64,000 bases of DNA from assembly GCA_016795505.1 (NCBI GenBank), contig JAEUHH010000076.1:1-64000 (forward strand), given 5' to 3'. Of the stretch, positions 9,977-54,493 are shown piece after piece. Every line of letters begins with the position of its first letter. The stretch's first letter is position 1. Below the pieces are notes generated by a model. It ran no database searches. It was not told the DNA's origin and saw nothing but the letters and a program-made list of their open reading frames with translations. This DNA is from Verrucomicrobiales bacterium. GTDB taxonomy: Bacteria > Verrucomicrobiota > Verrucomicrobiia > Verrucomicrobiales > DEV007. Position numbers and translations under genes: made by a program.

Positions 9977-10047
9977 GCCGTTGAGCGTTTCTGATCCGAC
10001 CCGGTCGCGGAATCAAGGCGATGGGTCGGTTGTCCAGAGGATCGGAA

Positions 10048-10139
10048 GCCGGAGGCATTACAGCCATTAGCCGGAGGTTGAGCGCAGCGACACCACCGGT
10101 CCATCCGCACGCATTCCGGGCATCCCGGAGGGATGCAAG
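10048..10139 (-). repeat. Interspersed multi-hairpin repeat, copy B (inverted)
   Basis: This is the reverse complement of the element at 1-97, with the same three hairpin blocks in reverse order and a few substitutions (for example GGAGGTTGAGCG where copy A predicts GGTGGTTGAGCG). It faces copy C, 31 bp away, so the two together form a large inverted structure in the 470-bp gene-free interval 9977-10446. Confidence 0.8.
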
Positions 10140-10320: not shown

Positions 10321-10390
10321 TTGCCTCTCCGATCAGACCCTGTTGCCTCTCCGATCAGACCCTGTTGCCTCTCCGATCAGACCCTGTTTG
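10321..10390 (+). repeat. 22-bp tandem repeat, three perfect units
   Basis: Three perfect 22-bp units occupy 10321-10342, 10343-10364 and 10365-10386. Each contains CTCCGATCAGACCCTG, and a partial fourth (TTTGATCG) follows. ACCCTG occurs at 10337, 10359 and 10381, exactly 22 bp apart. The array ends about 60 bp upstream of the start codon at 10447. It is the cleanest copy of the family. Confidence 0.9.
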
Positions 10391-10446
10391 ATCGTTCCAA
10401 ACGACCGCCCGATTTTGTAATCGCCGGTCTTCCGGGATTCGCTACC

Positions 10447-16809: not shown

Positions 16810-17970
16810 TCAGTCGCCCCGCAGCCGCTTCTGCAGGTCGTCTCCCGTATAGCCCGTGAGTTCCAGGTAGGCGCGTCCGACTTCGCCACCGGCCTCATCG
16901 AGCACGTCGCATGCCCCCTCCCAGTAAGCCACTCCACCCAGGCCGCCCGTCATCTCCTGCGCCTCCATCACCGGTCTCAGGGAAAAACGTCGTTCCTTGC
17001 CGCTGGTGGGATCGATGGAGCCGAAGCGCGGCCGGATCGGATAGCGCCCACCCGTCTCGGGGCTTTCCCAGATCCCTCCCGGCTCCCACTCGAATTCACC
17101 AGCATAGCGGTGCGCGACACGACCGTCCGTTTCGATCCAAGCCAGTGTCGAATGCTGGTCGGGCGAGCCATCCGGCTTTCTCAACACGTAAGCCATCAGT
17201 TCGCGCCCGTCGTCAAACTGCACGCTCACCCAGTCCCAGCCCACCTGTTCCCGGCCCAGTTGCGAGCTGGACACCTCGTGATCCATCCACAGGCTGCCCG
17301 TCACCTCCAGGTCGCGGCCATCGATCCGCAGCAGCCCCCTGGCCTTGAGACGCGGAAACGTCACATACAGGCTCACCGCCGCCGGTTCGTCGCCCTTGCG
17401 CGAGACGCCGTCGCGGCCGAAACGCACCGCTGGCTTCGCCGTCTCCAGGACCAGGTCCACGGCGGCCTCGCTTCTCACTCCCCCCATCAACCGCATCGAA
17501 CCGTGATCCTCCAGACTGCCCAATCCACTCAGCCGCTTCAGCGACCAGTTGCCATTCCACAATTCCAGATCGCCCACCCGGGCCCCCGCATCCCACCCCT
17601 GCCGGTTCAGCCGTTCCTCGTGCAGAAATCGCCCGCCCGCCACGTCCGTCACTGCAAAATGGGCCAGATAGAGCTGGCTGTCGCCAAAGGCCGCATTCGC
17701 ATCGTCTAACACGGGCCGCTGGGCCAATCGGAAAAAAATCGCCTGCATCCCGAAGCGACGCCCGCCCGCGAACAGGTGTCCCGTCAGATACCACCACTCG
17801 ATCCGATGATCCGGATGGCTCCCATGAACCGCCGGAAACGCCAACTCCCCACCCGCCTGCGGAATCCGGAAGCCATCAGCGGTGCGCTCCGCACCTGCGA
17901 GGGGACGAAACGCGCAGGTAAGCCCGGCGGCGATCAGCGAGCGTCGGGTGAGTCGATGAGACAGGGTCAT
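16810..17970 (-). CDS. AttH/CrtC-like lipocalin-domain protein with Tat-type leader
   Basis: The 386-residue protein begins with a Tat-like signal (RLTRRSLIAAGLTCAFRPLA). The body carries the DHRIEWWYLTGHLF block and YLAHFAVTD, then GSLWMDHEVSSSQ and GWDWVSVQFDDGRELM, the signature segments of the double-lipocalin AttH/carotenoid 1,2-hydratase (CrtC-like) family. Such proteins are commonly encoded behind an ATPase and FtsX-like permease pair, exactly as here. A role in exporting or handling a lipophilic molecule at the envelope is inferred; carotenoid hydration is not implied. The first codons, ATG ACC CTG TCT CAT CGA, are formed by a unit of the 22-bp repeat family. Confidence 0.82.
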   Translation of the reverse strand: MTLSHRLTRRSLIAAGLTCAFRPLAGAERTADGFRIPQAGGELAFPAVHGSHPDHRIEWWYLTGHLFAGGRRFGMQAIFFRLAQRPVLDDANAAFGDSQLYLAHFAVTDVAGGRFLHEERLNRQGWDAGARVGDLELWNGNWSLKRLSGLGSLEDHGSMRLMGGVRSEAAVDLVLETAKPAVRFGRDGVSRKGDEPAAVSLYVTFPRLKARGLLRIDGRDLEVTGSLWMDHEVSSSQLGREQVGWDWVSVQFDDGRELMAYVLRKPDGSPDQHSTLAWIETDGRVAHRYAGEFEWEPGGIWESPETGGRYPIRPRFGSIDPTSGKERRFSLRPVMEAQEMTGGLGGVAYWEGACDVLDEAGGEVGRAYLELTGYTGDDLQKRLRGD

Positions 17971-18018
17971 ATCGTCGGTGCAACAGGGTTGGATCGGAGA
18001 TCAAACAGGGTATCATCG
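17962..18018 (-). repeat. 22-bp phased repeat, three units overlapping a start codon
   Basis: On the minus strand three units occur with ACCCTG exactly 22 bp apart (complement CAGGGT at 17962, 17984 and 18006). The distal unit reads CCGATGATACCCTG then TTTGATCT, and the middle one CCGATCCAACCCTG. The proximal unit contains the start codon of the AttH-like gene. Confidence 0.85.
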
Positions 18019-27520: not shown

Positions 27521-27568
27521 AAGTCATGGGCTGGCGGGGCGATCGGGAGTATCTTGTCGACCGGTTCC

Positions 27569-27632
27569 GATGAGACCCTGTCCGGTCTCCGATCGAACCC
27601 TGTTTGATCGCCGATCCTACCCTGTTGCCTCG
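27569..27632 (+). repeat. 22-bp phased repeat, three units
   Basis: ACCCTG occurs at 27575, 27597 and 27619, again exactly 22 bp apart. The central unit reads CCGATCGAACCCTG then TTTGATCG. The array ends about 7 bp before the ATG of the histidine kinase gene at 27639, so it occupies the position of the ribosome-binding site. Confidence 0.88.
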
Positions 27633-27638
27633 CCACCG

Positions 27639-29699
27639 ATGAAAAAACTCGCCGCCGTGTTCGCCATCGCCGTGCTCGGTCCCTCGCTGGTGCTGGGCTG
27701 GCTGGCGACGCGGTCGTTGCGGGATCAGGAGGTGATCGTCCACAGCCAGCGCGCCCTGCTCCATCAGGGGGCGACCGACGCCCTGGCTGCCGAGCTGAAT
27801 CGGTTTCTCGACGATGTCCGGGTCTTCTACGGCAGCCTGCTGGAGGAGATGATCGCAGAACGCGGAGCCGAGCCGCTCGCCGCCGATTTCGATGCCGCGA
27901 TCCGCAGCCGCTGGAGCCAGGCGGCCGTCGGCGCCGCCGTCACGGTGGAGGGACGCTGGCTGCACCCGCCCTCTGCTGAGGCCGATCCCCGGATGCGGCG
28001 CTTCCTGAGCGACACCCAGTCATTCCTGCAGAACGAAGCCGCCACGGACTTCTACCTCGCACCCTCCATCACGGGCAATGTCGTGACCGTCGAGAGGGAG
28101 GGATCCAAGCGACCCTCAGACGAACGTGCGGCCACGTCATCCACCCCGGAGGCGGGTGCGATGCCTGCGACCGCCTCCGCCGCGGCTTCTTCATTTGGGA
28201 AGGCGCCCGCGGACCCTTCGCCCAAAAGTGCCGAGACCCGGCAATCGACGGCTCAACAAAAGGTGACCGTGGCTCCCCCTGCGGCTCCCGCCAGCCCTCC
28301 TCTGGCCGCCGCCGCACCGGCTCCTGCTGCCGCGCCCGCCGCCTCCGCCGCACCAGCTGACGCCGCCGCGGAGGCTCCGCGCAGCCGGAACGTCAAACCA
28401 CTGTCCCAGCTCGATCGTCTCCAAAGCGACGGCCGGATCGCCCAACTGGCCGAGGCGGCCTCGAATGTTCTCGAACCGTTTGCCAACGGCAGCCCGTGGT
28501 CCGCGCTCGACCTGAACAGCGGCCAGCTCAGCGATCTCATTGCCACCGGACCCGAGGGTGCCATCAGCCGCTTCGTCTCCGGCGGCCTGCAGATTCTCCT
28601 GTGGCGGCGCGACCCGGCGGCTCCGGACCTCGTCTTCTGGGTGCAGCTCGACCTCGAGGCGCTGAAACAGGAACTGTCCGAAGTCATTCGTCAGAGTGGC
28701 ACGTCTCTGGCCCGACCCGAGGCCTGTCTCGCCCTGCTCGATGCCGGGGGCCAGGTAGTGGCGCGCACGCACGAAGATTTCAACGCCGATTGGGAAAGGC
28801 CTTTCGTCGCCAGCGAAGTCGGCGCCCTGCTGCCCCACTGGGAAGTGGCCGCCTACCTGATCGATCCCCGCGCCGTCGCCCGGACGGCCCAAACCGCCCG
28901 GCTGATGCTCTGGATGCTGGTGCCGGTCCTGCTGGGAGCGATCGGACTGGGCAGCGCCCTCATCATTCGCGAGATCGGCCGCGAAATGGCGCTCGCCCGG
29001 CAGAAGACCGACTTTGTCAGCAACGTGAGCCACGAGCTGAAAACGCCGCTGACCTCCATCCGCCTGTTTTCCGATCTGCTCAGCCAGCGCAGCGGTCTCG
29101 ATGAGACGAAGCGCACCGAGTACTCGGGCATCATCTCCCGCGAGGCAGCGCGACTGAGCCGCCTGATCAACAACCTGCTCGACTTCTCCCGCATGGAGCG
29201 CGGCGAGCGCCGCTACCGGATGGAACCCATCGACGCGCGCGCCGTGGTTCGCGACACGGTGGAAATGTGCCGGCATCAGATCGAGTCGGACGGCTACACC
29301 CTGAAGCTGCGCGACGACGGCGATGCCAGACCGGCGCCGGTGGCCGGCGACCGTGACGCGCTCGCCCAGGTCCTGCTGAACCTGCTGAGCAACGCCGAAA
29401 AATACGGCGGATCGGGCCGCCATATCGAGGTGGAGACCCGTCTCACCGGCCCGTTCATTGAAATCGATGTGCTAGACCGCGGTCCCGGCGTGCCACGGCG
29501 CCTCGCGGCGAAAATCTTCGAGAAGTTCTACCGCGCCGACGATTCCCTGAGCAGCGGCATCGAGGGCTCGGGGCTCGGTCTCACCCTCGCCCGGCAGATC
29601 GCCCGCGCCCATCGCGGCGAGGTCGAATACCACCCGCGGCCCGGCGGCGGCAGCCGTTTCACCCTGCGTCTGCCACTCGACACCACCGCCACCGCCTGA
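27639..29699 (+). CDS. Sensor histidine kinase with a long Ala/Pro-rich sensor linker
   Basis: The protein is 686 residues. Two membrane helices (about 3-22 and 421-443) flank a periplasmic sensor that contains a low-complexity Ala/Pro/Ser-rich stretch (about residues 150-250). The kinase core has the phosphorylated His465 in SNVSHELKTPLTS, an N-box LLNLLSNAEKYGG and the G-boxes DRGPGVP and GSGLGLTLA. No HAMP domain is evident. The ATG at 27639 starts the first helix. The response regulator follows by 4 bp, so this is a co-transcribed pair, and the VWA gene upstream may be part of the same unit. The low-complexity linker length is unusual. Confidence 0.9.
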   Translation: MKKLAAVFAIAVLGPSLVLGWLATRSLRDQEVIVHSQRALLHQGATDALAAELNRFLDDVRVFYGSLLEEMIAERGAEPLAADFDAAIRSRWSQAAVGAAVTVEGRWLHPPSAEADPRMRRFLSDTQSFLQNEAATDFYLAPSITGNVVTVEREGSKRPSDERAATSSTPEAGAMPATASAAASSFGKAPADPSPKSAETRQSTAQQKVTVAPPAAPASPPLAAAAPAPAAAPAASAAPADAAAEAPRSRNVKPLSQLDRLQSDGRIAQLAEAASNVLEPFANGSPWSALDLNSGQLSDLIATGPEGAISRFVSGGLQILLWRRDPAAPDLVFWVQLDLEALKQELSEVIRQSGTSLARPEACLALLDAGGQVVARTHEDFNADWERPFVASEVGALLPHWEVAAYLIDPRAVARTAQTARLMLWMLVPVLLGAIGLGSALIIREIGREMALARQKTDFVSNVSHELKTPLTSIRLFSDLLSQRSGLDETKRTEYSGIISREAARLSRLINNLLDFSRMERGERRYRMEPIDARAVVRDTVEMCRHQIESDGYTLKLRDDGDARPAPVAGDRDALAQVLLNLLSNAEKYGGSGRHIEVETRLTGPFIEIDVLDRGPGVPRRLAAKIFEKFYRADDSLSSGIEGSGLGLTLARQIARAHRGEVEYHPRPGGGSRFTLRLPLDTTATA

Positions 29700-37532: not shown

Positions 37533-38591
37533 ATGAGACGGAGAGCGGCGATCATCGGCATCGGAGCCGGAGTCATCCTGGCCGCCATGGGGTGGCTCAG
37601 CCGAACACCACCGACGCCCGCTCCCAGTCGCGACGAGGCAGCGACGGTCGCTGCCGCGCCCGGGGGCGGATCAGCCGCCGCCACCACCACGAGCCCCAGC
37701 GCCAGCGAGCAACTGATGCGCCTCGGCGATGAGGGAATCCCGGAACTGAGCGACTCCGAGATCGAGGCATTCGTCGAGTCCCGCCAGCGCGACGCCACCA
37801 GCCTGATTGCCGCTCTTTACCTCAGCGGGGATCCCGCCTGGCTCGACGAGGCCGCCGAGCGCTTTCCCGACCGGCCCGAGGTCGCTCTCGCCGTCCTGAT
37901 GCGGGGTGAGGCAGCGGAGACGCAGGGCCTCTGGATCGAGCGTCTCAAACGAAACGATCCCGAGAATGCGGTCGGCCACCTCTTCGCCGCCCGGCAGGCC
38001 TTTGCCGACGGCGACTCGACCGCAGCGCTCAGTGAGCTCGCCAGCCTGGCAGATAAGCCACGCACCCAATTTTACATGACCTCCGTCCGCCAGGCCATGA
38101 CCGACGCCTACCGGCAGGCCGGCCACGGCGATCTCACCGCGGAATGGAGCGGGATGGCTAGATCACCGGTCCCTGCCAGCGAACTCCGGAGCCTCGGCAA
38201 ATCACTCGCCACCGCGATGGAGACCGCCCACGCCGCCGGCGATCCGGCGATGACCCAGCAGTTCGGTCAGATCGGCCTGGAGGTGGCCCGCCGCGTCGTC
38301 CAGGACGAGCCCGGCGACTTTCTCATCACCCGCCTCATCGGCCTGTCCCTGCAGCGCCAGGTGCTCCATCAGCTCGACGTCTTCGAACTCGTCCCCGGCG
38401 ACCGCCAGATCGTGGCCGACCGCCTGATAGAAATGGATCGCGACCTCGCCACCCTCCGCGACCTGACCACCCGCCACGCCGAGGCCGTGGCCCGGCTTTC
38501 CGACACAGAGGCCGTCGAGTTTACCCGCCGGCTCAAGCAGCAGGGAGAGTTCCGCGCCCTGCGATGGCTGGCGGAAAAGGACCGCTCCTGA
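37533..38591 (+). CDS. Membrane-anchored TPR-like hypothetical protein
   Basis: The 352-residue protein has one N-terminal membrane helix (about 6-24, AIIGIGAGVILAAMGWLS), a low-complexity linker (Ala/Thr/Pro-rich, about 25-55) and an all-alpha C-terminal domain. The pairwise helices (DPAWLDEAAERFPDRPEVAL, NAVGHLFAARQAFADGDSTA) look like tetratricopeptide-type repeats. I do not recognise a specific family. The ATG at 37533 follows TTCCCCCC. It is 31 bp behind the DUF1501 gene and may be in the same operon. Confidence 0.6.
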   Translation: MRRRAAIIGIGAGVILAAMGWLSRTPPTPAPSRDEAATVAAAPGGGSAAATTTSPSASEQLMRLGDEGIPELSDSEIEAFVESRQRDATSLIAALYLSGDPAWLDEAAERFPDRPEVALAVLMRGEAAETQGLWIERLKRNDPENAVGHLFAARQAFADGDSTAALSELASLADKPRTQFYMTSVRQAMTDAYRQAGHGDLTAEWSGMARSPVPASELRSLGKSLATAMETAHAAGDPAMTQQFGQIGLEVARRVVQDEPGDFLITRLIGLSLQRQVLHQLDVFELVPGDRQIVADRLIEMDRDLATLRDLTTRHAEAVARLSDTEAVEFTRRLKQQGEFRALRWLAEKDRS

Positions 38592-38597
38592 GGCCCT

Positions 38598-38652
38598 TCC
38601 GATCAGACCCTGTTCAGTCGGAGAGACAAGAGGGTTTGATCGGACGGGTTCC
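38598..38652. repeat. 22-bp family, inverted pair
   Basis: A forward unit (TTCCGATCAGACCCTG then TTCAGTCGG) is followed by an inverted one (GAGGGTTTGATCGG). It lies directly after the TPR-like gene and about 50 bp before the MarR-like gene, at the boundary to the accessory stretch 38.7-45.8 kb. Confidence 0.75.
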
Positions 38653-40591: not shown

Positions 40592-40654
40592 CGGCGGCGG
40601 GGCCGTCCGGAAACGGGCGGATTCCCCCCAAGCGAGGCCCTGGAATCCCGTCAT

Positions 40655-40846
40655 GGGGCTCCGGGGCTCTTTTTTGGGGCTCAGAGCCCCGATTTCGGAG
40701 GTCAAAGCTCCGTTTTCGGAGGTCAAAGCTCCGAATTCGGAGGTCAAAGCTCCGAATTCGGAGGTCAAAGCTCCGTTTTCGGAGGTCAAAGCTCCGTTTT
40801 CGGAGGTCAGAGCTCCGTTTTCGGAGGTCAGAGCTCCGATCAGGGT
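40655..40846. repeat. 21-bp tandem array of small perfect hairpins
   Basis: The core is six units with a 21-bp period starting at 40708, 40729, 40750, 40771, 40792 and 40813. Each is CTCCG-NNNN-CGGAG (loop TTTT or AATT) joined by the spacer GTCAAAG or GTCAGAG. Degenerate units flank it at about 40687 and 40834. Upstream are three GGGGCTC copies (40655, 40663, 40676) and the palindrome GGGGCTC-A-GAGCCCC (40676-40690). It occupies the convergent gap 40592-40867 and is free of stops in several frames only because the period is a multiple of three. Confidence 0.92.
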
Positions 40847-40867
40847 TCCCGCGGAGGTGCGGTGGGC

Positions 40868-43800
40868 TCACCACGGGGGCAGAGGGCCGAAGATCTCGGC
40901 GGGGAGGAGGCGGTTGCGATTGGCCTGGGCGTCCCAGCCACGCCAGCCGAGGAGCCGCCAGGCATTCGAGGAGGCATGGAGGACGCGATTGCCGGGAAAA
41001 TCGACCAGGGCGGTTTCGCCATTACCGATGACCCAGGAGCGAATCATTTCACCGGAATTCGCGTCCCACTCTCTTAAAGTGCCGTCGGCTCCCCCGGAAA
41101 CCAGCCGGGCCCCGTCCGGCGACCAGGCCACGCTCCTGACCCCCCGGCCATGGCCCTCGAGGGTGAGTGCGGCCCGCCCGCTGGCCGCGTCCCAGACCCG
41201 AACGGTGCCGTCACCGCCTCCGGAAACCAACCGAGCCCCGTCCGGCGACCAAGCGACACTGTTGACCCCCTGGCCGTGGCCCTTCAGGGCGAGGAGGACC
41301 CGCCCGCTGGCCGCTTCCCACACACGGACAATGCCGTCCCCCCCCCCGGAAACCAATTGGGCTCCGTCTGGCGACCAACCTACGCTCCCGACCCACCCGC
41401 CATGGCCGTCCAAGGCGAGGAGAGCCAATCCACTGGCCGCGTCCCACACCCGAACTTTACCGTCTTCGCCACCAGAAACCAGCCGGGCTCCATCCGGCGA
41501 CCATGCCACGCTTAAGATCCTATCTTCGTGGGCTTCGAACGTAAGAAGGGCTTGCCCGCTAGCCGCGTCCCACACTCGGACCATGCCATCATCGCCCCCA
41601 TAAACTAGGCGAGCCCCGTCGGGTGACCAGCTAACGCTCCAGACCCACCCGCAACGGCCCTCCAAAGCGAGGAGCGCCCGCCCGCTGCCCGCGTCCCAGG
41701 ACCGCACAATCCCATCATCACCCCCGGAAACCAGTTGGGCTCCGTCCGGCGACCAAGACACACTGTTGATCCCCTTGCGATGGCCCTCAATGGCTAAAGG
41801 GGCCCGACCTCTGGCCGCGTCCCAAACCCGAACCGTGCCGTCTTCGCCCCCGGAAACCAGCTGGGTCCCGTCCGGCGACAAGCCTAAACTGTTGACCCAC
41901 TGCCGATGCCCCTCAATGGCAAAAAGAGGCCGACCGCTCGCCGCATCCCACACCCGGACCGTGGCATCATCGCCCCCAGAAACCAGCCGGGCCCCGTCCG
42001 GCGACCAACTTAAACTGTTGATCCACGTCCAATGCCCCTCAATAGCATGAAGGGTCCGCCCGCTTGCCGCGTCCCATACCCGGATAGTGGCGTCATATCC
42101 CCCGGAAACTAGCCTAGACCCATCGGGCGACCATGCCACGCTATTGACCCACCCGGCGCACTTATTGAAGACTAAAAGGGCCCGCCCGCTGGCCGTATCC
42201 CACACCCGGACGGTGCCGTCATTGTCCCCTGAAGCCAACTGGGTCCCATCCGGCGACCACGCTACGCTACCGACCCATTGCCCATGGCCTTCCAGGGCGA
42301 GGAGGGCGCGCCCGCTGGCCGCTTCCCACACTCGGACGGTGCCATCATCGCCCCCAGAAACTAGCCGGGCCCCGTCTGGCGACCAGGCCACGCTCCCGAC
42401 CCACTTGGCATGCCCCTCGAAGTCGATGATGGCCCGCCCACTGGCCGCATCCCACACTCGGACGGCTCCATCATATCCCCCGGAAACCAGCCTAGCCCCG
42501 TCGGGCGACCACGCCACGCTGTTGACACCATTTAGATGCCCATCCAGAGCGAAGAGGGCCCGCCCGGCAGCCACGTCCCACACTCGGACGGTGCCGTCCT
42601 GACTCCCGGAAACCAGCAGAGTCCCGTCCGGCGACCAAGCCACGCTGCAGACCGTATTGCCGCGCTGCTCCAGGGCGAGGAGAGCCCGCCCGCTGGCCGC
42701 GTCCCAGACCCGGACGCTGCCGTCGGTTCCCCCGGAAACCAGCCGTGTGCCGTCCGGCGACCAGGCCACGCTGTTGGCGTTGCCGGAATGCCCCTGGCGC
42801 AGGCTCAATTGCCATTCATCGGAAATCACCTGAACACTGGCAGCCTCGTGGCTCCAATCGGCGGGGAGCGCGGCCCCTGCCAGATCCGAGGCGATCACGT
42901 CGCAATCATGCCAAACGGCGGTCGTGGCCCGCAGGCCCCGCAAATCGCAGCCCCGCCAGGTGCCGCCGCAGAGATCGGCCCCCTCGAAGTCCGCTCCGAC
43001 CAGATCGACGCCATGTAGCTCAGCCAACCGGGCGGAGAGACCAGTGGCGTGGGCTCCGGTTAGGAGGGCGCAGTGAATATCGGCGTGATCGAGCCGGCTC
43101 CCAGATAGATCGGCGTGGCGCAGGTCGAAGCGTGGCCCCTCCGGCGTGCCGATCACCCAGCCCTCCAGATCGAGGTTCTGGAGGGCGGCCCGGACCGGAG
43201 AGGGCTGAGGCCACCCGGCACAGCGGGCGACGATCCAAGCGCGAAAGGCATTCCGCCGGGTGTTCGCCGGCAGGGAGCCATCGTCCAGCCAGCGGGTCCA
43301 CTGTGCCACGGCAGCGGCGGGGTCGATCTTTTCCCCTTCGGCCAGCAATTGACCGGCGAAATCGAGGGTTTCGTCCGAGGGCAGGGGCAGATCCCAATCG
43401 GCGGGGCGGTCCTCCTCCCAGGCGCGCACGAGATGGAGGGCGAGGAAGTACTCGTAGAGGGAGGTGTGAGCGAAGCGGAAACCGTCCTTTTCCCCATCGG
43501 GCCGCAGGCAGAAGGTGGCGGCGCGAAAGTCCTGATTGAGGACTTCGGCGGGTTTGTCCTGATAGCGGTCGCGGATCTCGGGGTGGGCGGCGAGGAAGCT
43601 GTCGAGCCATTTGGACACCTTGGCCCAGGGAAGGGTCTTCTGATTGATCCGGCAGAGGTGGGCAGCGAGGGCCTCCATCATCTGGAGTTTGTGCTCGGGG
43701 GTGAACTGGTGCTTGTACTCATCGCGCCGCAGCCATTTCTCGACGAAGAGGCCGTAGAGGGTGACGCCGAGAACGGTGCGGCCCGCGGCTTTCATCTGCT

Positions 43801-45655
43801 CCAGGGCATTGAGCTCGGGCGCGATCAACGACAGGAGGAAGGGCCGGGTGGAGAGGTCGGTCAGATTGTGAACGGACCGGATGACGCCGACAGCCTCCTC
43901 GACCCGTTCCTCCCCGAGCATCTTGCCGAGGTAGGCGCGGACCTGGGCATCATTGAAGGGCAGGATGACGCAGGCGGTGTAGTCCTGCTGGCGGATGCCC
44001 TCGCGGTCCTCGCCGGTGAAGGCGGAGCTGAGGGCGGTGATGGTGGGAAAGTAATGGGAGCGGCAGGAGATGATGAGCCTGCCGGGCCGGGTGCCAGGCT
44101 TGGGCTTTTGCGAGAGGGGCGGCAGCACGCTCCAGAGTTGGCGGATGAAGGCATCGCGCCGCCCCTGTGGCAGGGGGATGATGCGCTCGTCGAGGCCATC
44201 GAAGATGATGAGGGCGCCGCGCTCGCGGACAGCCCGGATGATCATCTCGGGTGTGATGGCGCGACCGGCGTCGCCTTTCCAATGGCGGGAGATGACGACG
44301 CGGAGGATATCTTCGAGGACGGGATCGTTCTCAAAGTAGTAGTCCTTCAGATCGATGAAAATGACGGCGGGAACAGTGGCGTCCTGTTCCCGGCGGCGTT
44401 CCAGTTCCTCCGCCAACAACATGAGAGTGGTGGTCTTGCCGATGCCAGTCTCACCGAGGACGGCGCAGAAGGGAGTGCCCTCGGGCTTGATGGCCCAGTC
44501 GGCGAGGAAATCGACGGCTTTGGTGCGGTTCTGCTCCAACTGGGAGGCGTCTTTTTCCCAGTTTTGAAGGCTGACGTTGGCCCCGTGGGGATCGACCGGG
44601 CACTCGGGGGTGACGTTGTTGAGAACGATATGGTGGCCCAAATCGGCGGTGGCGGCGTGGGCCACCTCGGCATCATCGAGAGGGAATGGCTCTGGGGTGC
44701 GGGACGGGCGGAGAGGCTTTGCCTTCGGCGCAGTGGGTTTGCGGGAGGATTTGATTTTTTCGAGGATCTTGCCGGCGAGATCCTGAGCGAATTCGTCGGC
44801 AATGTGCCCGGTGCATTGAGAGTAGAAACGGGGCTCACCGCTGTCGCGCTGGAGGCGGTAGATCTGTGTGACCTCAAGGCCTTTCATATCGATGCGATCG
44901 AAGACCAGCGGGGTGAGACCCACGGGGATGACGGGTTTTGTTCCCGTGACGAAGGGTGGCAGTTCCTTGCCGGTGATGTAGCGACTGAGGAGGAAATCCC
45001 GGGACACGAAGAGCAACCCGAAATCGCAACTTTTAAGGGCGGTCTGAATGCGCTCGTCCCAATCGGCGCCGACCTCGATCTTTTTGTCGGACCAGATCTC
45101 GAAGCGGTAGTCCTTAATAAGCGCCAGCTCCTTTTCGAGAGAATCCTGAAGCCGGGTGACCCGCTCGCGGTCCGCATGGGCATAGGACACGAAGAAGCGG
45201 ATGAGGGGTTTGATTTTCTCCGGATGCTCCTGCTCCTCCTGATTGAGGATGGCGGCGGCGGGAGGCACGAGATCCTGGCCTTCGATGGTGCTGACGGCCT
45301 CGCGGGTGAACTGCGCAAGATTGGCGACATCGGGCGAGGGACCTTCGATCCAGGTCTTCCGGATTTCGGGATCGGCTTTCTTTTGGGTATCGACCTTGAT
45401 GGCGAGTTCCAGGTTCGCCTCACGGGCGGCTTCATTGGCTCGAACGACGAAAGTCTGATACGCAGCGAGGGCGGCGACGCGGTCTTTGCCCGGTGCGATC
45501 ACTTGGAGGGCCGAGGCAAGGGAGGCCTCGCCGGTTTCGAACAGGGGCAACAGAGCCGACAGGCGCTCGGCATTGACGCGACCCAAGTGGTCGAGCCACG
45601 TCTGGGTGGAGGGGCCGATCTGCGCGGCGGAAAGGGGCTGGAGGTCAGCGGGCAT
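40868..45655 (-). CDS. TIR-NACHT NTPase with pentapeptide and 14 WD40 repeats, candidate defence sensor
   Basis: The protein is 1595 residues. An unassigned N-terminal region (1-150) is followed by a TIR domain (about 151-280: IRFFVSYAHADRERV, a D-rich SDKKIEVGADWDERIQTAL segment, and the candidate catalytic Glu231 in ITGKELPPF). A NACHT/STAND NTPase comes next (Walker A GETGIGKTT at 401-409; Walker B ALIIFDGLDERI; the later FRFAHTSLYEYFLALHL at about 726-742). Pentapeptide-like repeats follow (about 843-925: DLRHADLSGSRLDHADI). Fourteen WD40 repeats of 42 residues fill about 950-1540, each with SVAWSPDGxxLVSGGxDGTVRVWD. TIR effectors degrade NAD+ in related anti-phage STAND systems; sensing by WD40 and NACHT-driven oligomerisation is inferred. 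The start at 45655 follows a C/T-rich leader. A micropeptide gene lies 6 bp upstream. Confidence 0.88.
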   Translation of the reverse strand: MPADLQPLSAAQIGPSTQTWLDHLGRVNAERLSALLPLFETGEASLASALQVIAPGKDRVAALAAYQTFVVRANEAAREANLELAIKVDTQKKADPEIRKTWIEGPSPDVANLAQFTREAVSTIEGQDLVPPAAAILNQEEQEHPEKIKPLIRFFVSYAHADRERVTRLQDSLEKELALIKDYRFEIWSDKKIEVGADWDERIQTALKSCDFGLLFVSRDFLLSRYITGKELPPFVTGTKPVIPVGLTPLVFDRIDMKGLEVTQIYRLQRDSGEPRFYSQCTGHIADEFAQDLAGKILEKIKSSRKPTAPKAKPLRPSRTPEPFPLDDAEVAHAATADLGHHIVLNNVTPECPVDPHGANVSLQNWEKDASQLEQNRTKAVDFLADWAIKPEGTPFCAVLGETGIGKTTTLMLLAEELERRREQDATVPAVIFIDLKDYYFENDPVLEDILRVVISRHWKGDAGRAITPEMIIRAVRERGALIIFDGLDERIIPLPQGRRDAFIRQLWSVLPPLSQKPKPGTRPGRLIISCRSHYFPTITALSSAFTGEDREGIRQQDYTACVILPFNDAQVRAYLGKMLGEERVEEAVGVIRSVHNLTDLSTRPFLLSLIAPELNALEQMKAAGRTVLGVTLYGLFVEKWLRRDEYKHQFTPEHKLQMMEALAAHLCRINQKTLPWAKVSKWLDSFLAAHPEIRDRYQDKPAEVLNQDFRAATFCLRPDGEKDGFRFAHTSLYEYFLALHLVRAWEEDRPADWDLPLPSDETLDFAGQLLAEGEKIDPAAAVAQWTRWLDDGSLPANTRRNAFRAWIVARCAGWPQPSPVRAALQNLDLEGWVIGTPEGPRFDLRHADLSGSRLDHADIHCALLTGAHATGLSARLAELHGVDLVGADFEGADLCGGTWRGCDLRGLRATTAVWHDCDVIASDLAGAALPADWSHEAASVQVISDEWQLSLRQGHSGNANSVAWSPDGTRLVSGGTDGSVRVWDAASGRALLALEQRGNTVCSVAWSPDGTLLVSGSQDGTVRVWDVAAGRALFALDGHLNGVNSVAWSPDGARLVSGGYDGAVRVWDAASGRAIIDFEGHAKWVGSVAWSPDGARLVSGGDDGTVRVWEAASGRALLALEGHGQWVGSVAWSPDGTQLASGDNDGTVRVWDTASGRALLVFNKCAGWVNSVAWSPDGSRLVSGGYDATIRVWDAASGRTLHAIEGHWTWINSLSWSPDGARLVSGGDDATVRVWDAASGRPLFAIEGHRQWVNSLGLSPDGTQLVSGGEDGTVRVWDAARGRAPLAIEGHRKGINSVSWSPDGAQLVSGGDDGIVRSWDAGSGRALLALEGRCGWVWSVSWSPDGARLVYGGDDGMVRVWDAASGQALLTFEAHEDRILSVAWSPDGARLVSGGEDGKVRVWDAASGLALLALDGHGGWVGSVGWSPDGAQLVSGGGDGIVRVWEAASGRVLLALKGHGQGVNSVAWSPDGARLVSGGGDGTVRVWDAASGRAALTLEGHGRGVRSVAWSPDGARLVSGGADGTLREWDANSGEMIRSWVIGNGETALVDFPGNRVLHASSNAWRLLGWRGWDAQANRNRLLPAEIFGPLPPW
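41040..42808 (-). repeat. 126-bp tandem coding repeat (14 near-identical WD40 units)
   Basis: Fourteen head-to-tail units of 126 bp encode the WD40 region. Adjacent and distant units share long runs of identical bases, including at silent positions. Such DNA-level similarity favours recombinational change in repeat number, as in fungal HET-E/NACHT-WD40 genes. The assembly of this region should be confirmed with long reads. Confidence 0.85.
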
Positions 45656-51633: not shown

Positions 51634-52350
51634 TCATTCTGCGACGAACCGGTAGCCGAACTCACGAATGGTTTCGATGTGGCGGGGATGAGTTGGGTCC
51701 GGCTCGATCTTTCTCCGCAGGGTCGTCACGAAGCGATCGATCGTGCGGCTCGTGACCCGCGAATCGTAGCCCCAGACCTCGTCCATCAGGTCGTCCCGAC
51801 TCATCGCCCGCCCGGGATGGCTCGCCAGACAATCGAGCAGTCCATACTCCTTCGGAGACAGCGGCACGACCTGTCCAGTCAACGTGAGCAGCCGATGGGA
51901 TCGCCGGTCGAGCACGTAGCCTCCGAATCTCACCTCCCCGCCCGTCTCGTCACCAGCCGGCCCGTGGGTCTCACCGCCACCCGCGCTCCGGCGGAGCACG
52001 GCCTCGACCCGTGCCAGCAGTTCACGAATGCCAAAGGGCTTCCGGATGTAATCGTCCGCACCCAGGCCCAACCCGAGCAGCACATCGCTCTCATCGGCCT
52101 TCGCCGTGAGGAAAATGATCGGCGCCGACCAGCCCTCATGCCGGAGATAACGACAGATCTCATACCCATTGATGCGCGGCAGCATCACATCCAGCACCAG
52201 CAGATCCACCCGGCCGCGGCGGGCTTTCTCCAAGCCGCGTTCACCGTCCGCCGCCGTCTCCACGTGATAGCCACGGGCCGCGAAATTGTCCGAGACGCCC
52301 CGCAACAGGGCGGGATCGTCCTCCACGATGAGGATGCGGGATGCTTTCAT
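51634..52350 (-). CDS. OmpR-family response regulator
   Basis: The protein is 238 residues. Its receiver domain has the acidic pocket VEDDPA, D54 in VLDVMLPR and LTAKADES, followed by a winged-helix domain (LSPKEYGLLDCLASHPGRAM ... SRTIDRFVTTLRRKIE ... IETIREFGYRFV). The ATG at 52350 overlaps the kinase stop by 4 bp (ATGA), so it is translated together with the kinase. Signal and target genes are unknown. Confidence 0.92.
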   Translation of the reverse strand: MKASRILIVEDDPALLRGVSDNFAARGYHVETAADGERGLEKARRGRVDLLVLDVMLPRINGYEICRYLRHEGWSAPIIFLTAKADESDVLLGLGLGADDYIRKPFGIRELLARVEAVLRRSAGGGETHGPAGDETGGEVRFGGYVLDRRSHRLLTLTGQVVPLSPKEYGLLDCLASHPGRAMSRDDLMDEVWGYDSRVTSRTIDRFVTTLRRKIEPDPTHPRHIETIREFGYRFVAE

Positions 52351-53669
52351 GTCCGTTTCAGGTTGGGAATCCACCAAATCGACCGGGGCCTCCGCTGAGA
52401 GGCGGGAACCTCTGCCGGGACGGCCGGCAATCGGATCAAAAACCGGCACCCACCCGCATCCGGTGTCTCCAGCCAGAGGCTGCCACCCATCCGACGCACC
52501 AGATGCCGCGTGATCGCCAGTCCGAGCCCGACACCGGCTCCGCGACCGGAGAGGCGCTGGTCGACGCGGTAGAACCGCCGGAATACCGCCCGCCGATGCT
52601 CCGCCGGGATGCCCGGCCCCTCGTCGCAGACGCCCAGCACCAGACAGGAGCCGCTGACACCCGCCGCGATCGTCACCTGGGGCGGCTCGCCCTCGCGGGC
52701 ACCGTATTTCAGGGCATTCTCCACCAAATTTCTCAGCACGGCAGTCAGCGCGTCCGCGTCGCCCCATGCGGTCAGCCCATTGGGCAGGCGTACCGTGATC
52801 CGGGCCCCGGTCGCATCCAGAGCGGGGCTCAGTTCCTCGAGCATTGACGCGACGATCGCCTCCACGTCGCATGCTTCCCGGCGCAATCGCAAGTCTCCGC
52901 GTTCCAGTCGGGCAAAGGTCAGGAAATCCTCCGCCAAACGGGAAAGCCGGCGATTTTCCTTCAGGACGAGATCGAGATACTCCCGTCGTCGCTCCTCCGT
53001 CGCCACGATGCCTGCGTCGTCGTCGGCCAGCGTCTCCAGCAGCACCCGCATCGCGGCCAGCGGAGTCTTCATCTCATGCGAGACCGTGGTGAGCAGGTCG
53101 CTGCGCAACTCATCCACCCGCAGGCCCCGGTGAACCGTGAACCACACGGCCGCAGCCACCGCCGCCACGCCGACCGCCCAGCCAGCCGCGCGCCACCAGG
53201 CCATGCGCAACTGTTCGTCGATGTAGTAGGGCAGTTCCACCACCCGGTCGAGCACCACCGTCCAGCCAGCGTAGCGACCCTCGGGAATCTCTGCCACGAT
53301 GGCATTCTGGGTCGGAGGCTCGCCCCAACTCCAGGTCCCGCCCCCGGCCGGCGCGCGCAGCACCAGCGTCACGTCATCGCCGAAAATGCGGCGGAACTGG
53401 GCAAACAACACCTCGCCGCCCCCGACGGCACTGACATTCTGCGAAGTGCGGCCGATCAGATGGATGAGCTGCTCGCGGTAGTCCCGCGTCTCCACCGCCA
53501 CCGCCTCGTCCCGGTCGCGCTGCGCATTGTCCAGCATCAGCCGCACCATCAGGATGGCCGGCACCATCGGCAGCAGGGCCAGCAGCACCACCAACCAGCG
53601 CATTTGCCGGCGGCTCAGCCACATGCCGCTGCCTTTCATGGTGTCCAGCATAGCAAATCCAGCTTTCAT
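52347..53669 (-). CDS. Sensor histidine kinase
   Basis: This 440-residue kinase has two membrane helices (about 25-45 and 160-180) flanking a short periplasmic sensor of roughly 110 residues. The DHp contains H198 in TTVSHEMKTPLAAM, and the catalytic domain has LRNLVENALKYG, CDEGPGIP and GAGVGLGLAI. No HAMP is evident. The start at 53669 (MKAGFAML) follows a CATTTTTTCCTTCCC leader, which supports it. The gene lies immediately upstream of its response regulator. Confidence 0.92.
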   Translation of the reverse strand: MKAGFAMLDTMKGSGMWLSRRQMRWLVVLLALLPMVPAILMVRLMLDNAQRDRDEAVAVETRDYREQLIHLIGRTSQNVSAVGGGEVLFAQFRRIFGDDVTLVLRAPAGGGTWSWGEPPTQNAIVAEIPEGRYAGWTVVLDRVVELPYYIDEQLRMAWWRAAGWAVGVAAVAAAVWFTVHRGLRVDELRSDLLTTVSHEMKTPLAAMRVLLETLADDDAGIVATEERRREYLDLVLKENRRLSRLAEDFLTFARLERGDLRLRREACDVEAIVASMLEELSPALDATGARITVRLPNGLTAWGDADALTAVLRNLVENALKYGAREGEPPQVTIAAGVSGSCLVLGVCDEGPGIPAEHRRAVFRRFYRVDQRLSGRGAGVGLGLAITRHLVRRMGGSLWLETPDAGGCRFLIRLPAVPAEVPASQRRPRSIWWIPNLKRT

Positions 53670-53679
53670 TTGGGAAGGA

Positions 53680-53747
53680 AAAAATGTCGCGGGTGCCCGG
53701 AAAAATTCGCCACCGTCTCCCGGCTGACGACTTCTTCCCGGGCACCC
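53680..53747 (-). terminator. Hairpin with T-run downstream of the pilin-like gene
   Basis: On the minus strand, GGGTGCCCGGGAA (53747-53735) pairs with the later TTCCGGGCACCC (53702-53691), separated by about 32 nt. A T-run (ATTTTTTCC) follows within 12 bp. It is placed as a terminator for the pilin-like gene ending at 53771. Confidence 0.55.
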
Positions 53748-53770
53748 TGCTGCAGCCAGACAGACCGGGC

Positions 53771-54493
53771 TCAGCCCTCCGGGTCCAACAGCCTCGCCAG
53801 ATCGCCCATGTAGGCCCCGACCTCGAGGGCGTTCTCCTCGTCATAGCCGACCCGGGGCAGGAAGCGGGCGTCGTCGTCCCCTTTCAGCGGCACAGCCTCC
53901 GCGCTGCCGCCGATCCGAACCACGATGCCTTTGCGCCCCTCCCAAGTGCCGCCCTTCGTGCCCGGCTTGCGGTTGTATTTGCCCGAGCCATCGGTGCCGT
54001 CCACCACCAGCGGCCAGTCGCTGCGAGACGCGGTCGTCAAACCGGCGATGTAAGCCCAGTGATTCTCTCCCGCCCGCAGCCGGTCGCTCTCCTCCTCGAT
54101 CCGTCCGTCGGCCCTAGGCCCCCAGGCACTCGCGCCGACCGAGAAGATCCGCTCGGTGTCGATGTAGTCCACGATGAGCAGGCGGAAGACTTCGTTCGAA
54201 TTGCTGAACTCCTCCTCGGTCACGGGATGCACGGTACCGGGAAACATGCCGTCGAAGTCATTGGCCCAGGCCCTCAGGCCCATGCCGAGTTGCTTGGCAT
54301 TCTGCATCGCGGCATTCATCTGGGCCGCCCGGATGGCGGCCTGGAGTCCGGGCATGGCCACGGCAGCGAGGATGGCGATGATGGCGGTCACGGCCATCAA
54401 TTCCATCAGGGTGAAGGCCGCCGCGGACCGGTGAACGGCACGGCAGCGGAACGATCCAACAGGGTTGGTCCGGCGATCAAACAGGGTATTCAT
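53771..54493 (-). CDS. Type II secretion/pilin-like prepilin protein
   Basis: The 240-residue protein has a leader (about 26 residues) followed by a type IV prepilin motif AFTLMELMAVTAIIAILAAV, with glutamate at position 5 after the cleavage site. Its globular part is about 190 residues (NEVFRLLIVDYIDTERIFSV, LVVDGTDGSGKYN), similar to pseudopilins of verrucomicrobial or planctomycete secretion systems. Only the ATG at 54493 is available; the first about 13 codons (MNTLFDRRTNPVG) are written by two units of the 22-bp repeat family, so the leader is partly repeat-derived. The substrate and system are unknown. Confidence 0.82.
   Translation of the reverse strand: MNTLFDRRTNPVGSFRCRAVHRSAAAFTLMELMAVTAIIAILAAVAMPGLQAAIRAAQMNAAMQNAKQLGMGLRAWANDFDGMFPGTVHPVTEEEFSNSNEVFRLLIVDYIDTERIFSVGASAWGPRADGRIEEESDRLRAGENHWAYIAGLTTASRSDWPLVVDGTDGSGKYNRKPGTKGGTWEGRKGIVVRIGGSAEAVPLKGDDDARFLPRVGYDEENALEVGAYMGDLARLLDPEG
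54455..54491 (-). repeat. 22-bp phased repeat, two units inside a coding start
   Basis: CAGGGT (complement of ACCCTG) occurs at 54460 and 54482, 22 bp apart. Translated on the minus strand they give TLFDR and NPVG, the N-terminal codons of the prepilin-like gene. Confidence 0.85.

Follow-up and report, generated by a model that had tools for sequence, protein, structure and literature searches.

A dispersed 22-bp repeat in the leader of a prepilin-like gene and in other genes of a Verrucomicrobiales bacterium

Two units of a 22-bp dyad repeat, a dispersed element restricted to one lineage, lie in the leader of a prepilin-like gene in a Verrucomicrobiales bacterium; they were probably acquired in frame behind an older start codon and tolerated there. 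The gene lies in the window, which is the whole stretch of 64,000 nucleotides analyzed in this study (GenBank assembly GCA_016795505.1, contig JAEUHH010000076.1, positions 1 to 64,000). Copies of the same repeat are read as protein in other genes, and we consider a REP-like, lineage-specific element that is tolerated in dispensable protein segments to be the likeliest explanation of the family.

The prepilin-like gene and its leader

The minus-strand open reading frame at positions 53771 to 54493 encodes a prepilin-like or pseudopilin protein of 240 amino acids. It matched the Pfam profile N_methyl (3e-05, above the cut-off, residues 22-47) and the NCBIfam profile TIGR02532 (above the cut-off), and these matches identify the N_methyl / GFxxxE processing motif of type IV prepilins. 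The translation starts with MNTLFDRRTNPVGSFRCRAVHRSAAA|FTLMELM, so that a leader of 26 codons (54416 to 54493, minus strand) precedes the F of the motif, in agreement with the length of about 26 residues given in the preliminary description. As in type IV prepilin and pseudopilin leaders, the sequence has a positive charge, A at position -1, E at position +5, and a hydrophobic N-terminal helix; unlike those leaders, it contains a repeat, of which the examined orthologues have no good copy. The upstream neighbor of the gene is an HrpB-type helicase gene, and downstream on the same strand are genes for a histidine kinase and then a winged-helix response regulator (51634-54493).

Both copies in the leader are exact matches to ACCCTGTTNGATCG on the minus strand (54487-54474 and 54465-54452), placed 22 bp apart, and belong to a large genome-wide family, which bears out the earlier report of a repeat at this place. 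The right part of unit 1 (ACCCTGTTTGATCG, 54474 to 54487) is exact, with a degenerate left half that extends over the start region; unit 2 (ACCCTGTTGGATCG, 54452 to 54465) is also exact. In the leader, the repeat accounts for roughly codons 3-14. Folding of this copy was no better than that of shuffled sequences (z 0.53; 144 of 200 shuffles as good).

The ATG at 54491 to 54493 (minus strand) is the sole in-frame ATG, GTG, or TTG between the upstream stop and the processing motif. The preliminary description was thus right that only one start is available, but not that it lies inside the repeat: the repeat core (ACCC) begins 4 nt 3' of this ATG, which is outside the well-matching part, and unit 1, which would span the ATG, scored 7.9 bits against the family profile versus 19.7 bits for unit 2. 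Alternatively, the repeat might be part of a non-coding 5' untranslated region with translation beginning downstream, which we regard as improbable. Our home-made gene caller, whose starts are approximate, sets the start inside the reading frame at 54406, a Shine-Dalgarno sequence is not clear ahead of the ATG at 54493, and the passages of PMC3733652 used here caution that REP sequences at predicted N-termini are often perhaps extragenic, the true start being downstream of the predicted one. However, a start at 54406 would delete the processing motif, no in-frame ATG, GTG, or TTG occurs from 54493 to that motif, and the ATG at 54493 matches the start context of orthologues.

We scanned 22 orthologous prepilin loci over an interval reaching 300 bp upstream and 60 bp downstream of the residue-25 codon; the named contigs with close orthologues are metagenome-assembled genomes labelled Verrucomicrobiia, Verrucomicrobiales, or Akkermansiaceae. 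A 22-bp-phased pair with at most three mismatches in total was found at none of the 22 loci in this interval. Weak pairs with five mismatches were located before the residue-25 codon at two of them (174 nt in L032 of genome G061 and 46 nt in L048 of G024), versus about 0.3 expected in 22 stretches (reversed-sequence rate of 0.0125 per 360 nt), and an older, decayed copy in G061 and G024 is therefore possible.

The orthologues in G062 (same genus, 73% identity) and G013 (68%) open with ATGAATACC, and that in G061 (71%) opens with ATGAAAACC, all without a good copy of the repeat. On this comparison, the start codon is probably older than the repeat and inherited, and the earlier proposal of a start provided by the repeat is not supported. 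Among the seven closest orthologues, the leaders are unrelated in sequence to the one studied here and are 13-25 residues long (25 in G061, 22 in G062, 19 in G003, 18 in G015, 16 in G013 and G012, and 13 in G068); these lengths are minima, counted from the nearest plausible ATG, as several orthologues, including those of G061 and G062, have further in-frame starts upstream. A leader therefore existed regardless of the repeat. The repeat does form much of the first part of the present leader, as had been described, with a start that was probably already in place. Of the orthologue results, the missing pair supports the preliminary description, and the start context common to three of them does not.

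We infer that the repeat was inserted and did not arise through substitutions, although insertion and gradual replacement look alike at this locus because the proteins of the nearest orthologues are only 71-73% identical. Translation and cleavage of the leader, and persistence of the repeat through tolerance, are likewise inferred. A REP-like element would spread and be kept where it is harmless, and a cleaved prepilin leader would be such a place: it would be removed by the prepilin peptidase and would be free to vary between species. We prefer this tolerated element for the prepilin leader because other species have no good copy there.

Abundance, phasing, and location of the repeat family

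The window contained 12 matches to the 14-bp motif with at most two mismatches, versus 1.48 expected, and none of 100 shuffled sequences reached 12. No Rfam family matched the whole window at gathering thresholds. Across genome G000, to which the window belongs, a 20-base form of the repeat gave 279 and 246 matches with at most three mismatches, versus none and none for the reversed pattern. Arrays were characterized in a sample of 1.26 Mb of G000 (10 contigs, about 19% of the 6.55-Mb genome), where an array was defined by a summed unit score of at least 18, with units joined if their starts were 12-26 bp apart. This definition was adopted since a scan for single units gave many intragenic singles, many of which were probably due to chance. 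The sample contained 136 arrays and its reversed sequence none; a separate count in G000 gave 126 arrays versus 2 in reversed sequence. Most arrays consisted of two (98) or three (34) units, and the others were two single strong units, one four-unit array, and one eight-unit array. The spacing was exactly 22 bp in all 176 joined neighboring units. The unit consensus was GA-N4-AACCCTGTT-N4-TC, with CCT or AGG at the center and looser outermost A and T bases of the core, and units of G060 and G061 kept the core and the GA and TC boxes and differed from G000 in the loose bases.

We also surveyed 74 genomes from 18 genera of the family for the pair AACCCTGTT-N13-AACCCTGTT with at most two mismatches. 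Abundant phased pairs were confined to genera g1, g2, and g9, with 343 in G000, 593 in G026, 368 in G020, and 149 in G058, and genus g2 varied from none (G001 and G019) upward. The genomes sampled from the other 15 genera had none or one pair each. No paper naming this repeat was found in a limited literature search, which is not possible by sequence and does not prove novelty.

A short, very frequent sequence that is found in frame in genes and often as inverted pairs by stop codons resembles a DNA-uptake-type signal. DNA uptake signals act singly. In this family, 61 of the 64 perfect copies of the 9-mer core (AACCCTGTT or AACAGGGTT) within the 1.26 Mb belonged to arrays, so that a lone core does not constitute the unit, and no single motif was over-represented alone. 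We have accordingly rejected an uptake signal, which is highly improbable.

In terms of location, 97 of the 136 arrays were intergenic, 14 lay over 3' ends, 5 over 5' ends, and 20 inside called genes, which make up 82% of the sampled sequence. Arrays were found at 0.96 per kb of gap between convergent genes, 0.54 between tandem genes, and 0.27 between divergent genes, and their median distance was 26 bp to a stop and 113 bp to a called start. The arrays of the prepilin-like gene and of a CrtC-like gene were tallied as intergenic because the caller starts both genes too far downstream (54406 and 17748, respectively), and N-terminal coding copies are under-counted for this reason. The distribution would suit a REP- or Rickettsia palindromic element (RPE)-like family that resides mostly in intergenic sequence just past stop codons and may sometimes be coding in linkers, signal peptides, and termini.

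Intergenic arrays of the window include a three-unit direct array at 10323 to 10396 (plus strand) and an inverted pair at 135 to 186, which folds at -26.6 kcal/mol (z -4.39). A three-unit array at 27561 to 27634 (plus strand) ends 4 nt before a called start at 27639, and an inverted pair at 38598 to 38644 begins 6 nt past the stop of a gene ending at 38591. For the segment 38593-38650, the folding energy is -35.9 kcal/mol (z -6.99), and very stable folds were obtained for two of six arrays folded, both of them inverted pairs.

Other repeats were observed in the window. Inverted arms of 131 nt (83% identity) at 1-131 and 10009-10139, close to the arrays beginning at 135 and 10323, apparently represent another dispersed repeat family. 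A 126-bp tandem repeat of thirteen copies (42 codons each) occupies 41034-42856 inside a minus-strand open reading frame of 1595 amino acids (40868-45655), and a partly palindromic 21-bp tandem repeat around TTCGGAGGTCAAAGCTCCG lies just past the 3' end of that frame (40631-40860).

Arrays read as protein and the same places in other genomes

The family was found in frame in unrelated conserved genes. Nineteen of the 20 genes with an intragenic array had a Pfam family at E ≤ 1e-5, including DnaE, Hsp70, TsaD, and a lipoyl E2 protein. The array was outside the listed Pfam stretches in 15 of these 19 hosts, a figure with no random expectation behind it. Examples are the linker between the lipoyl and E3-binding domains of E2, the hydantoinase A/B junction, the MobA-like/FdhD junction, the tail of TsaD, the region beyond HHH_6 in DnaE, and the N-termini of a DUF2071 protein and an esterase; an aldehyde dehydrogenase was also counted as outside, with uncertain status owing to a partial Pfam match. 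In the remaining four hosts (HsdR, an epimerase, Hsp70, and a HEAT protein), the array was inside a Pfam stretch. A few intragenic arrays, several of which have weak units, may be chance or natural sequence.

Recurrent repeat peptides were PIKQGLIADQTGSDR in DnaE and PIQQGLIADPTGSDR in a PSCyt2 protein, and the insert SDPTLFDRRSNPVSSE of the Hsp70-like protein is read in the same frame as TLFDRRTNPVGS of the prepilin-like protein. The intragenic arrays were read in the three frames 15, 3, and 2 times, counts that are not usable as evidence because only intact reading frames can be counted. The preliminary description had presented the prepilin leader as an example of a non-coding repeat that became coding; this holds for leader codons 3-14 and is too narrow, as the family is in frame in other genes, and in two of them other genera carry an array at the corresponding position.

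The CrtC/lipocalin-like gene on the minus strand at 16810 to 17970 (Pfam CrtC, 1.4e-43) illustrates a start provided by the repeat better than the prepilin-like gene does. The last unit of a three-unit array at 17954 to 18013 (minus strand) holds its ATG (17968-17970), and the start codon and the residues MTLSHR are within the array. In the protein, MTLSHR is followed by RRSLIAAGL, which we take to be a twin-arginine-like motif.

The same places were compared between genomes on DNA, with at most three mismatches allowed in a pair. In the Hsp70-like gene, a pair was present between conserved flanks in 6 of 11 genomes (G000, G060, G061, and G062 of g1, and G057 and G058 of g9, which are all the g1 and g9 genomes included) and absent from G068, G012, G020, G003, and G026, of which G020 and G026 are repeat-rich. 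The array site corresponds to extra residues in the g1 proteins; in G057 and G058 the units add no length over the protein of G068, a pattern that is closer to replacement than to simple insertion. The central triplets at this site, read by eye, were CCT/CCT in G000, AGG/CCT in four genomes, and AGG/AGG in G058. The linker of DnaE had a pair in 6 of 12 genomes (G000, G062, G061, G057, G020, and G026, with three units in G020 and G026), a count that excludes G060, whose contig ends there; no pair was found in G015, G006, G012, G003, or G068, and G058 had only a pair with four mismatches. The C-terminal linker of DnaE is hypervariable in the family (L126:11039-14623 and orthologues). For the CrtC-like start, a pair was present in 5 of 11 genomes (G000, G061, G062, G020, and G058), absent from G060, G015, G003, G026, and G068, and recognizable only with four mismatches in G012; by eye, the ATG is within a unit in G000 and G062. 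In these small numbers, some array places persist across genus-level divergence, in contrast to the prepilin locus, where other species have no good copy.

These places bear on a different possibility, namely that the arrays are putative protein-binding sites, with a dyad core and GA and TC boxes about one helical turn apart, and that the encoded peptide is a by-product. Such a site could then have formed or settled in the prepilin leader. We regard this as a tentative and rather unlikely explanation. It gains from the invariant phasing of joined units, as 22 bp corresponds to two helical turns, and from a core that is constant while the flanks differ between G000 and G060 or G061 and the mirrored flanks show no covariation. 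Arrays recurring at equivalent positions of the Hsp70-like gene, the DnaE linker, and the CrtC-like start are further support, as are the core orientation, which varies between species by eye, and the 46 gaps that are collinear between G000 and G060: G060 had an array in both of the two gaps with one in G000 and in 1 of the 44 gaps that lack one in G000 (Fisher p 0.003; small numbers). On the other hand, about half of the orthologous places are without an array, even at the Hsp70-like gene of the repeat-rich G020 and G026, and some inverted pairs form very stable hairpins. In addition, synonymous conservation at the Hsp70 site was only mildly higher (0.69-0.80 versus 0.52-0.62), in the direction expected of constraint but over 10-13 codons and thus numbers too small to weigh, and the 22 prepilin orthologues have no good copy.

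Relation to known repeats and significance

Repeats inside bacterial genes have been described previously. The parts of PMC3733652 considered here report REP sequences tagged with GTAG or CGTC, which also occur inside genes of Opitutus terrae (Verrucomicrobia); intragenic REPs are a minority there, and their hosts include genes for DNA synthesis and repair. In the portion of PMC2229807 consulted, Rickettsia palindromic elements, ERIC, and a 107-bp form of the Correia element are fused in frame to proteins.

The 22-bp family is, like REP sequences, a short, palindromic, high-copy, and mostly intergenic unit, and it shares with the REPs described in those parts of PMC3733652 palindromic units of 20-40 bp, frequent pairs, a preference for 3' ends and for gaps between genes that converge or run in the same direction, and a minority of intragenic copies. 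Unlike those REPs, it has no tag, its units abut at exactly 22 bp, and it has neither a link to a Y1 transposase nor covariation. Neither GTAG nor CGTC was seen by eye in the 33-nt consensus (283 units of G000, 154 of G060, and 22 of G061). The 17 Pfam matches to Y1_Tnp in G000 formed 16 neighborhoods, of which five contained an array versus about 5.8 expected from a background of about one array per 10 kb, and thus no association with RAYT transposases was enriched. Pairing at the mirrored positions ±4 to ±7 was not above shuffled values in G000 and G060, and this missing covariation counts against the stem-loop as the selected feature.

The family also resembles the RPEs of PMC2229807, as far as the portion consulted describes them, in being dispersed, in frame inside unrelated conserved genes (20 of 136 arrays intragenic), and present in intergenic sequence. 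In contrast, the RPEs described there are elements of 105-146 bp with long stem-loops, and the arrays analyzed here are mostly 44-66 bp, in Verrucomicrobiota; 132 of the 136 have two or three 22-bp units, which does not fit an element about 100-150 bp in size that carries a long stem-loop. We have therefore filed the 22-bp family neither as REP nor as RPE, as it differs in tag, transposase, covariation, and size.

According to the parts of PMC2229807 and PMC3733652 considered here, protein-coding palindromic repeats were previously described in Rickettsia, among tagged REPs, and in a few other small repeats. The present family is distinguished by being untagged and strictly phased at 22 bp, by its abundance in three genera, by its occurrence in core genes (dnaE and Hsp70), and by its ability to provide start codons. 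It raises the question of whether a selfish element settles in harmless protein segments or the site of a chromosomal protein overrules protein sequence, and a direct test between the two is possible because some arrays persist across genera with cores in either orientation. There is perhaps about one chance in a few that the array is a selected protein-binding site, which would then dictate, in three genera of a single verrucomicrobial family, the amino acids of linkers, signal peptides, and prepilin leaders as well as those at start codons. A repeat of the kind called non-coding writes pieces of proteins in one bacterial group, among them a DNA polymerase and an Hsp70 chaperone.
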